The position numbers and the translations under genes are program-made. 64,000 bases of DNA from Nocardioides panacis (GTDB taxonomy: Bacteria > Actinomycetota > Actinomycetes > Propionibacteriales > Nocardioidaceae). The notes below the pieces were generated by a model, which did not search any database, was not told where the DNA came from, and saw nothing but the letters and a program-made list of their open reading frames with translations. The DNA is taken from positions 4,340,001 to 4,404,000 of the forward strand of contig NZ_CP077062.1 in NCBI RefSeq assembly GCF_019039255.1. The letters are read 5' to 3'. Shown here in pieces: positions 21,762-24,835 of the stretch. Positions within the stretch are counted from its first letter, which is position 1; each line of letters starts with the position of its first letter.

Positions 21762-23177
21762 TCAGTCCGGGGGGAGGTCGACCGGCAGGCGGACCCGCAT
21801 GACCGTGTCCCCGGGCCGGGAGTCGACGGAGATCTCGCCGTGGTGCCGCTCGACCACGATGCGGCGGGCGATGTCGAGGCCCAGGCCGGTGCCGGCGTCC
21901 ACGTCCTTGGTCGTGTAGAACGCCTCGAACGCCCGGGCCGCCACCTGCGGCGTCATCCCGGTGCCGGTGTCGCCGACCTCCACGACGACCGAGCCGTCGT
22001 CGAGCCGGGTGCTGACCCGCAGCGTGCCGGAGCCGCCCATGGCGTCGACGGCGTTGTCCACGAGGTTGGTCCACACCTGGTTCAGCTCGCCGGGGTACGC
22101 CTCGATCATCGGTACGTCGTCCGCGTACTCCCGCACCACCGCCACCCCCGGCCGCAGCTTGTGGCTGAGCATCACCAGCGTGCTCTCGAGGCCGTCGGTG
22201 ACCCGGATGCGTTGCCGCGAGGCCCGGTCCATCTGCGAGTAGGAGCGCACCGCGCCGACCAGCTCGGAGATCCGGCGGGTGGACTCCCGCACCTCGCCCA
22301 GCAGGGTCGCGGCCTCGAACGTGCTGGCCGCCCACCGCAGCGCCGGCTCGAGCGCCGGGCCCTCGACCACGGCCGCGACCCGGTCGCACCACGCCACGTC
22401 CACGCCGGCCGCGGCCAGCGGGGCGGCCAGCGTCCAGCCGTCCGCGACGCCGCGCCGGGACAGCCACGCCGACAGCTCCTGCTCCCGGTCGGCGAGCGCG
22501 AGCGGGTCCACCGCCGCCGGGGCCGAGCCGGGCGGGGCGACCACGGCCGGCACCACCTCGAGGCGCAGCGCGTCGAGCGCCGCGAACTGGCCCGGGGAGA
22601 TCTCGTCGTGCGCGAGCCGGCCGAGCGAGGAGAGCAGCGTGTCGCAGGTGGTGCCGAGGGCGTCGGCGGCCCGGGTCGCGGCCGCGGCCGGGTTGTTGAT
22701 CTCGTGGGCGAGCCCGGCGGCCAGCGTGCCCAGCGTCAGCAGCGCCCCGCGCTGCCGGGCGGTCGACTCGATGGAGCGGGCGGTGCGGTAGACGCCCTCG
22801 ATCAGGTGGCCGCCGAACGGGAACCACGCGTCCGAGAGCCGGCGCAGCACCGCGGACGGCACGCACAGCACCCGTCCAGGTGCCACCCCGCGGCCGGTCG
22901 CGAGGTAGACCCCCTGGTCGTCCCAGGCCCGGAAGCCGCCGGCCCAGCGGCCCGGCACGTCCATCCGCGCGACGACGGTCTCCTCGCGGCCGATCACCTT
23001 GACCAGCTCGAGCGCACCGTCGACCAGGACCCACCAGGAGTCGGCCGGCTCGCCCTCGCGGAACAGCACGGCGCCCGGCGCGACGCCGACCTCGGCGCCG
23101 CCGGCCAGCAGCTCCGCCAGCCGGTCGTCGTCCAGCCCGTCGAAGAGCGGCAGCGGGCGCAGGTCCGCGACGCGCAT
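21762..23177 (-). CDS. Sensor histidine kinase with cyclic-nucleotide-binding-like sensor domain
   Basis: A 471-aa soluble kinase. Residues 10-115 form a cNMP-binding (Crp-type) beta barrel (VLFREGEPADSWWVLVDG), and residues 145-230 include the dimerisation/phospho-acceptor helix with H158 in GLAHEINNP. The ATPase domain has the N box (NLVDNAVDAM), G1 (DTGTGM) and G2 (TGLGLDIARRIV). There are no membrane segments, so the signal is cytoplasmic. Its ATG overlaps the TGA of the upstream response-regulator/flavoprotein gene (TGATG), so the two form a coupled two-component pair. Confidence 0.88.
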   Translation of the reverse strand: MRVADLRPLPLFDGLDDDRLAELLAGGAEVGVAPGAVLFREGEPADSWWVLVDGALELVKVIGREETVVARMDVPGRWAGGFRAWDDQGVYLATGRGVAPGRVLCVPSAVLRRLSDAWFPFGGHLIEGVYRTARSIESTARQRGALLTLGTLAAGLAHEINNPAAAATRAADALGTTCDTLLSSLGRLAHDEISPGQFAALDALRLEVVPAVVAPPGSAPAAVDPLALADREQELSAWLSRRGVADGWTLAAPLAAAGVDVAWCDRVAAVVEGPALEPALRWAASTFEAATLLGEVRESTRRISELVGAVRSYSQMDRASRQRIRVTDGLESTLVMLSHKLRPGVAVVREYADDVPMIEAYPGELNQVWTNLVDNAVDAMGGSGTLRVSTRLDDGSVVVEVGDTGTGMTPQVAARAFEAFYTTKDVDAGTGLGLDIARRIVVERHHGEISVDSRPGDTVMRVRLPVDLPPD

Positions 23178-24835
23178 CAGGTCGTCGCCAGGTAGCGGTG
23201 CACGAGGTAGACCGACATCGCGCCCTCGCCGACGGCGGACGCCACCCGCTTCATCGAGTCCAGGCGCACGTCGCCCGCGGCGAACAGCCCGGGCACGCTG
23301 GACTCCAGGGCCAACGGCGGCCGGGCCAGCGGCCAGCGGGGCCCGGCGTCGGACGCGGCCAGCTCGGGGCCGGTGAGCACGAACCCGAGGTCGTCGCGGA
23401 CCACGTCGGGACCGAGCCACTCGGTGCGCGGCGCCGCGCCGATGAACACGAACAGCCAGCTCGTCGCCACGTCCTCGGTGGTGCCCGCGTCCCGGTCCCG
23501 CAGGGTCAGCGTCTTGAGGTGGCCGTCGCCGGACGCCGCGGCGACCTCGGTGCGCAGCCGGACCTCGACCGTCGGGACCGCCCGGATCCGCTCGACGAGG
23601 TACTGCGACATGCTCACCTCCAGCGAGCCGGACCGGACCAGGAGCACCACCCGCTTGGCGAAGCGCGACAGGTTCAGCGCGGCCTGGCCGGCGGAGTTGG
23701 CCGCGCCGACGATGTAGACGTCGTCGTCCTGGCACTGGCTCGCCTCGGAGGCGTTCACGCCGTAGTAGACGCCGCGGCCGGTGAGGTCGGCGAGCCCCGG
23801 CGCCGCCAGCCTCCGGTAGGAGACGCCGGTCGCGGCGACCACCGCGCGGGCCTCGATCTCCGCACCGCCCTCGAGGAGCACCGCGCGGACCGGCCCGCGC
23901 GTCTCGAAGCCGACGACGTCGCGGGCGAGCACCAGCTCGGCGCCGAACCGGGTCACCTGGGCCAGCGCCCGGTGCGCGAGGTCGGAGCCGCTCAGGCCGC
24001 GCGGGAAGCCGAGGTAGTTCTCGATCGCCGCGCTCTGGCCCGCCTGCCCGCCGGGTGCCTCGCGCTCGACGATCACCGTGCTCAGGCCCTCCGAGGCGGC
24101 GTACACGCCGGCGGCCAGCCCGGCCGGCCCGCCGCCGACGATGCAGAGGTCGTAGAGCGGTCGCTGGGCGCTGGTGTGCAGGCCGAGCGCGCCGGCGACC
24201 TCCAGCGTCGAGGGCGAGCGGAGGGTCGGGCCGTCCGGCACCAGCACCAGCGGCAGGTCGGCGGGCTGCGCCTGCGCGAGGTGCTGGAGCCGGGTCCCCT
24301 CGGCGTCCCGCTCGACGTCGTACCAGCGGTAGGAGACGTGGTTGCGGGTCAGGAACAGCTTGATCTCATGGCTGCGGTCGGACCACCGGTGCCCGACCAC
24401 CCGCACCTCGGACGTCTCCTCGGGGTGGTCCTGCCGCCAGTCGTCGAGCAGCTCGTCGACGACCGGGTAGAGCCGCTCGTCGGGCGGGTCCCACGGCTTC
24501 ATCAGGTAGTAGTCGAGGCCGATGTCGTTGATCGCGGTGATCGCGACGTCGGTGTCCGCGTAGGCGGTCAGCAGCAGGAACTTCGCGTCCGGCGCGTGCT
24601 CGCGGGCCAGCGCGAGCATCTCGGTGCCGGTCATCCGCGGCATCCGCTGGTCCGCGACGACCATCGCGACCGGGTCGTCGCGCAGGGCCAGCCGGGCCAG
24701 CAGGTCGAGCGCCTCCGGGCCGGACGTGGCGCGGACGACCCGGTAGTCGGCGCCGTACCGGGCGAGGAGGTCACGGCCGATCGCGGCCGACACCATCGGG
24801 TCGTCGTCGACCGTCAGGATCGCGGGCTTGCTCAT
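23177..24835 (-). CDS. Response regulator fused to thioredoxin-reductase-like flavoprotein
   Basis: A 552-aa three-part protein. Residues 1-125 are a receiver domain (acidic DDD at 10-12, phospho-acceptor D62, K113). Residues 145-215 look like a small thioredoxin/glutaredoxin-type domain without a CxxC. Residues 225-552 are a thioredoxin-reductase-like FAD/NAD(P)H domain with GGGPAG and a second dinucleotide motif VGAANSAGQAA. The redox-active CxxC expected between them is missing; the segment reads GVNASEASQC. So the output is neither DNA binding nor classical thioredoxin reduction. It is translationally coupled to the cNMP-domain kinase downstream. ATG 24835 chosen as the start of the receiver domain. 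Confidence 0.87.
   Translation of the reverse strand: MSKPAILTVDDDPMVSAAIGRDLLARYGADYRVVRATSGPEALDLLARLALRDDPVAMVVADQRMPRMTGTEMLALAREHAPDAKFLLLTAYADTDVAITAINDIGLDYYLMKPWDPPDERLYPVVDELLDDWRQDHPEETSEVRVVGHRWSDRSHEIKLFLTRNHVSYRWYDVERDAEGTRLQHLAQAQPADLPLVLVPDGPTLRSPSTLEVAGALGLHTSAQRPLYDLCIVGGGPAGLAAGVYAASEGLSTVIVEREAPGGQAGQSAAIENYLGFPRGLSGSDLAHRALAQVTRFGAELVLARDVVGFETRGPVRAVLLEGGAEIEARAVVAATGVSYRRLAAPGLADLTGRGVYYGVNASEASQCQDDDVYIVGAANSAGQAALNLSRFAKRVVLLVRSGSLEVSMSQYLVERIRAVPTVEVRLRTEVAAASGDGHLKTLTLRDRDAGTTEDVATSWLFVFIGAAPRTEWLGPDVVRDDLGFVLTGPELAASDAGPRWPLARPPLALESSVPGLFAAGDVRLDSMKRVASAVGEGAMSVYLVHRYLATT

Follow-up and report, generated by a model that had tools for sequence, protein, structure and literature searches.

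The window analyzed here is a stretch of 64,000 nucleotides from the genome of Nocardioides panacis. Its positions 21762–24835, as delimited in the original prediction, hold two genes, one encoding a fusion protein and the other a histidine kinase; both lie on the minus strand and share a single base within the sequence TGATG. Their features are summarized in Table 1. Chance open reading frames can be dismissed, as each protein has matches to curated families and is conserved.

Table 1. Features of the fusion and kinase genes (positions in the window)
Feature	Position	Strand	Basis
Fusion gene: receiver, glutaredoxin-like domain, and thioredoxin reductase (TrxR)-like FAD module, 552 amino acids	23177..24835	-	
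Receiver domain, residues 1–130	24446..24835	-	Pfam Response_reg 6–118; invariant residues
Asp62, predicted phosphorylation site	24650..24652	-	Alignment
Glutaredoxin-like domain lacking CxxC, residues 142–220	24176..24412	-	Predicted secondary structure; CxxC-bearing relatives
TrxR-like FAD/NAD-type module, residues 226–552	23180..24160	-	Pfam; PDB fold matches
GVNASEASQC at the TrxR CxxC position, residues 359–368	23732..23761	-	
Altered pyrophosphate motif GAANSAGQAA, residues 377–386	23678..23707	-	
Arg530, in place of Gln of the TrxR RQ motif	23246..23248	-	
Histidine kinase gene, 471 amino acids	21762..23177	-	
Cyclic nucleotide-binding (CNB; Crp-like) sensor domain, residues ~1–117	22827..23177	-	Pfam cNMP_binding 32–114
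His158, predicted autophosphorylation site	22704..22706	-	H in 75/75 kinase ORFs
Helical insert between the two DHp helices, residues ~191–272	22362..22607	-	AlphaFold2 secondary structure
HATPase_c catalytic domain, residues 364–467	21777..22088	-	Pfam; kinase structures

Pfam recognizes Response_reg (57 bits) in the receiver of the fusion protein and Pyr_redox_2 (residues 228–538, 101 bits) in its FAD module. The acidic pair D10/D11, D62, T90, and K113 are all present in the window receiver; across 22 aligned full-length relatives, D11, D62, T90, and K113 are invariant and the FAD motifs are conserved. An AlphaFold2 model of the fusion (22 sequences, mean pLDDT 82.8, pTM 0.53), in which the orientation of the domains is uncertain, gives the middle domain the order b-a-b-a-b-b-a, and the equivalent domain of L097, the one CxxC-bearing relative scanned, is assigned to Glutaredoxin by Pfam. 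This small domain had been described as thioredoxin-like and devoid of CxxC; the absence of the motif stands, since the site reads WSDRS, but the domain is better called glutaredoxin-like.

Structure comparisons, which mainly cover fusion residues 222–552 and kinase residues 140–469, align the FAD module with TrxR and AhpF structures in the PDB, the top matches being 4a5l_B (Z 33.4, rmsd 2.8, 303 residues) and 5usx_B (Z 33.4, rmsd 2.6, 308 residues). The TrxR-like ferredoxin/flavodoxin-NADP reductases have a TrxR-like fold without CxxC and pass electrons from NADPH to ferredoxin or flavodoxin; FNR structures 8c16 and 6gar rank lower in the fold list (Z approximately 26). The fusion misses the NCBIfam equivalog cutoff for TIGR01292, scoring 193.7 against 343.45 bits.

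The Crp-like domain proposed for the kinase is indeed present as a CNB fold (cNMP_binding, 35.2 bits; cutoff 27.5). The phosphate-binding cassette of cAMP/cGMP receptors has the form FGE...R(T/S)A; judged by eye only, the window domain reads RWAGGFRAWDDQGVYLATGRG at this place, without the Glu, and the sequence argues neither for nor against cAMP or c-di-GMP as the ligand. Pfam detects HATPase_c and only the first half of HisKA (149–174), the latter below cutoff, and the catalytic domain matches known kinase structures. The putative phosphoacceptor His158 is invariant throughout the family, and the N, D, and G box residues are conserved. In the AlphaFold2 model of the kinase (20 sequences, mean pLDDT 82.8, pTM 0.46), a long helix (119–190) is followed by four shorter helices (195–270) and by a helix at 273–317. 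The insert between the DHp helices is thus all-helical, and carries Trp and Asp/Glu residues conserved across the kinase family; it may guide docking of the receiver of the fusion. Two other kinases of the family (L133, 10257–11675, and L209, 3290–4714) carry a receiver-like N-terminal region in place of the CNB domain.

Relatives of the fusion were collected by BLAST. Of the 172 genes found, 11 were excluded: L009, identical with the window; L173; and nine TrxR-like genes that stand alone and have no space for the middle domain (L111, L112, L114–L119, and L122). With P0001 added, the alignment held 162 rows. These comprise 74 with an intact receiver, 28 with a degenerate receiver, 47 with other N-termini, 3 bare forms, and 10 bearing CxxC. 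A receiver was called intact when it had D/E10, D11, D62, T90, and K113; this class and the CxxC class are thus defined by residues, and the presence of a kinase and of CxxC at the glutaredoxin site were scored independently. Thinning at 72% identity reduced 160 rows to the 114 from which the tree was built.

The replacement of the TrxR CxxC by GVNASEASQC, proposed from the window sequence, is borne out, and the two disulfide sites go together: of 162 rows, the same 10 carry CxxC in each domain, and the other 152 lack it in both. CxxC-bearing relatives are under-sampled in this set, since every relative was collected through its resemblance to the window proteins. The ten, L097 and L105 from Chloroflexota and L195–L202 from the window's own phylum, Actinomycetota, read WC(P/G)DC at the glutaredoxin site and CATCDG at the TrxR site. 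A single Cys remains at the glutaredoxin site in 10 of the 152 CxxC-less rows. An absence this widespread rules out a frameshift or misassembly masking a CxxC in the window. The seven CxxC rows in the tree form one group opposite the other 107 (SH-aLRT 100, quick method). Fixed differences between the two sets include R530 for Q (R in all 149 CxxC-less rows that have a residue at the position, Q in all 10 CxxC rows), Q384 for E, and H546 for R. By comparison with PDB entry 5uwy, the two Cys have become G359 and S363, the Asp that follows them Glu364, and the RQ motif KR. Because the FAD motifs are conserved and Arg530 is without exception, the paired absence of CxxC does not look like simple decay. 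We infer from these patterns that the disulfide relay was dismantled as a whole, with the flavin site under continued selection, and that the direction of change was loss, which the tree alone cannot prove. With both disulfide centres absent, thioredoxin is probably not the real partner.

The identity of the electron donor is less secure, and NAD(P)H, named as reductant in the original prediction, now appears a weak candidate: the motif for the 2'-phosphate of NADPH is missing, and that for the pyrophosphate is altered. PMC5627308 gives the NADPH motifs as GGGxxAxE and VxxxHRRDxxRA. The window has GAANSAGQ in place of the former and VVLLVRSGSLEVSM (LVRSGSLEVSM) in place of the latter; the corresponding family patterns are GG(A/G)NSAGQ and VR(G/S)xSLxxSMSxYL. 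Gln384 occurs in 151/151 CxxC-less rows with a letter at that position, and Arg401 is kept in 147 of 152. Turnover of NAD(P)H may therefore be absent, and use of NADPH is, to judge from these motifs, doubtful; NADH or a different donor may serve instead.

The proposal that the two genes form a two-component pair agrees with the intact kinase and receiver residues in the window and with the distribution of kinases among the relatives. A kinase of the same family lies nearby in the fetched DNA for 71 of 74 intact-receiver genes, the window's included, and the three lacking one (L025, L081, and L203) lie at or near contig ends. No kinase of the family was found in the fetched DNA flanking any of the 88 rows without an intact receiver; these flanks extend, on both sides, at least 500 bases in 80 rows and at least 1200 bases in 63, so that absence is less certain in the eight with less than 500 bases on one side. 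The kinase is downstream at 59 of the 74 loci and upstream at 7 (five of them from Bacteroidota), two kinases are present at 5, and none at 3. Among 70 fetched loci, fusion and kinase lie no more than 200 bases apart in 68 and approximately 2.5 kb apart in L060 and L133. In a test of correlated evolution between kinase and intact receiver, both of the independent pairs agreed, but because the tree offers only these two contrasts the clean split is not significant once kinship is taken into account. By the counts themselves we regard the predicted link between kinase and receiver as strong. In four genomes (G195, G130, G248, and G227) one fusion gene is flanked by three consecutive kinases of the family, as though several sensors fed one output there.

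Full-length relatives with a kinase were found in Actinomycetota, Cyanobacteriota, Bacteroidota, Gemmatimonadota, Acidobacteriota, Pseudomonadota, and Deinococcota. Among 296 genomes of the window's phylum, the fusion family occurs in 70 (E ≤ 1e-60), the kinase in 42, and both in 38; in the order, where 196 genomes were searched, 60 have a close relative of the fusion (E ≤ 1e-150), and the window's genome is one of these. Where the flanks are longer, just two neighbors recur widely, the kinase (36 loci) and a gene for a zf-UBP zinc-finger protein (11 loci); the next cluster, ABC-type ATPases, reaches 6 loci. In the phylum set, 15/40 fusion places with a kinase have zf-UBP within 12 kb, versus 6/64 without, and zf-UBP is present in 48 of 70 genomes with the fusion versus 20 of 226 others; plasmid records of Tsukamurella and Streptomyces place it third, after the kinase. 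No zf-UBP gene was found near the window pair, although three matches occur elsewhere in its genome, one of them near L012. Small zf-UBP genes also adjoin receiver-fused, CNB-fused, and bare forms (L063, L066, L075, L094, L102–L104, L135, and others).

Other members of the family appear to take their input differently. A profile of the kinase CNB domain matches 39 of the 47 rows with other N-termini (E ≤ 2e-10), placing a CNB-like domain directly on the flavoprotein, and Pfam finds cNMP_binding in eight of nine scanned relatives, the ninth (L011) having a degenerate receiver. Made without an outside Crp control, this profile match speaks for a shared CNB fold but does not show descent from the kinase; that the flavoprotein acquired its CNB domain from the kinase itself is offered as a suggestion only. 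When the tree is rooted on the CxxC group, the receiver forms are basal and the CNB and degenerate-receiver forms nested (supports 92, not starred), which suggests that a CNB domain fused straight to the flavoprotein took the place of kinase and receiver. Besides the window pair, the same genome encodes two degenerate-receiver paralogs (L010 and L011), the CNB-fused L012, and one truncated paralog. The last (L013/L211; G000:C1:1146260-1147603), of 447 amino acids, retains a degenerate receiver and the FAD halves; the NAD(P) domain is missing in frame, and Gly stands at the equivalent of Arg530. In 28 other genomes of the order, the similarity to it ends close to where the domain is deleted, but within open frames of 577–981 amino acids. 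As these appear full length, the loss is probably decay in one strain and does not mark the NAD(P) domain as dispensable.

Taken together, these data lead us to favor, at a probability of roughly 55%, a dedicated two-component system whose putative output is not DNA binding but kinase-gated flavin redox chemistry with a non-dithiol partner. That the output would not be transcription was already part of the original prediction, and a non-DNA-binding flavoprotein without a dithiol centre agrees with it. We propose that the CNB-fold domain sets autophosphorylation of the kinase at His158, that the phosphoryl group would pass to Asp62 of the adjacent receiver, and that the resulting change would reach the TrxR-like module by way of the glutaredoxin-like linker, itself redox-dead, and would alter there what a presumably bound FAD reacts with or binds. 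The module is related to glutaredoxin–TrxR fusions with two dithiol centres, both of which are gone in this clade; this loss, together with the remodelled flavin surroundings (Gln to Arg530), makes redox chemistry with a non-dithiol partner the most likely activity. Points that weigh against the proposal are the altered pyridine-nucleotide motifs, the small number of independent contrasts on the tree, the short flanks of eight kinase-free rows, the uncertain domain orientation in the model, and the truncated paralog of the same genome, which has neither the NAD(P) domain nor Arg530. A system in which kinase and fusion are mere neighbors, the receiver being a structural remnant, seems highly improbable: receivers are degenerate in 28 of 162 rows, L010 and L011 of the same genome among them, and the two contrasts on the tree are few, but both partners are intact in the window, and their pairing recurs in seven phyla and in both gene orders. 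There is also little to recommend a disulfide reductase that would work through an external thiol or through a different cysteine, such as Cys368. In its favor, the protein has the TrxR fold, and Cys368 is present in 98 of 152 CxxC-less rows and in 62 of 74 with an intact receiver; it is nevertheless not conserved (1/28 among degenerate-receiver forms), no other column exceeds 20% Cys, there is no second Cys, and the glutaredoxin-like site likewise has no Cys pair.

The main rival is a flavin redox sensor or adaptor in place of a turnover enzyme, a possibility we rate as real if somewhat unlikely. The oxidation state of FAD and phosphorylation of the receiver (or a CNB ligand) would be read together and would alter the binding of a partner protein, the best candidate being the zf-UBP protein of other lineages. 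Loss of both dithiol centres, the altered NAD(P)H motifs, and the standing of zf-UBP as the only widely recurring neighbor besides the kinase all fit such a role; the gene is, however, absent near the window pair, and strict conservation of the flavin-site residues fits catalysis as well. Still more tentatively, the TrxR-like clade, having no dithiol and perhaps no NAD(P)H chemistry, could be a flavin switch gated by kinase and receiver or by a CNB ligand and acting on a zf-UBP partner. Were this so, it would detect the coincidence of redox state and signal, and two-component systems would have gained a further, non-transcriptional type of output. The relatives supply natural controls (intact receivers with a kinase, degenerate receivers without one, CNB-fused forms, and CxxC-bearing relatives) with which to ask how a phosphorylated receiver affects the flavin site.

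The architecture itself is already in print (PMC5847659): response regulators joining a receiver to thioredoxin reductase (TrxB) are listed in domain censuses (PMC5847659, PMC9953108), and the window fusion, with the same receiver and TrxR-like arrangement, is most likely one of them. The census output is named thioredoxin reductase, whereas the window fusion lacks both CxxC centres, and the passages of the two papers available to us do not mention the kinase, the glutaredoxin-like linker, or zf-UBP. In the open-access literature searched we found neither a functional study of a receiver/TrxR-like system nor a report of the paired disulfide loss, the kinase/receiver segregation, or the input swap. 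Census papers and database names alike class these proteins with thioredoxin reductases; to judge by the comparisons made here, the window fusion should not be filed there, and if the label is wrong for the whole receiver/CNB clade, a widespread signaling output has been misfiled. Proteins annotated as "cyclic nucleotide-binding domain-containing thioredoxin-disulfide reductase" (e.g., L136) have the same CxxC-less glutaredoxin-like/TrxR-like module and nest with the receiver forms on the tree; unlike the window pair, they carry the CNB domain fused directly, without a receiver and with no kinase found adjacent. AhpF and the fusions of TrxR with glutaredoxin or thioredoxin (e.g., L097, L195–L202) resemble the window protein in joining a thioredoxin-fold domain to a TrxR module, but L097, L105, and L195–L202 retain both dithiol centres and the window protein neither. 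DvTRi, an atypical, NAD(P)H-independent TrxR, likewise combines the TrxR fold with degenerate NADPH motifs, but it keeps its CxxC and can reduce thioredoxin when artificially reduced (PMC5627308), whereas the window protein has no CxxC.
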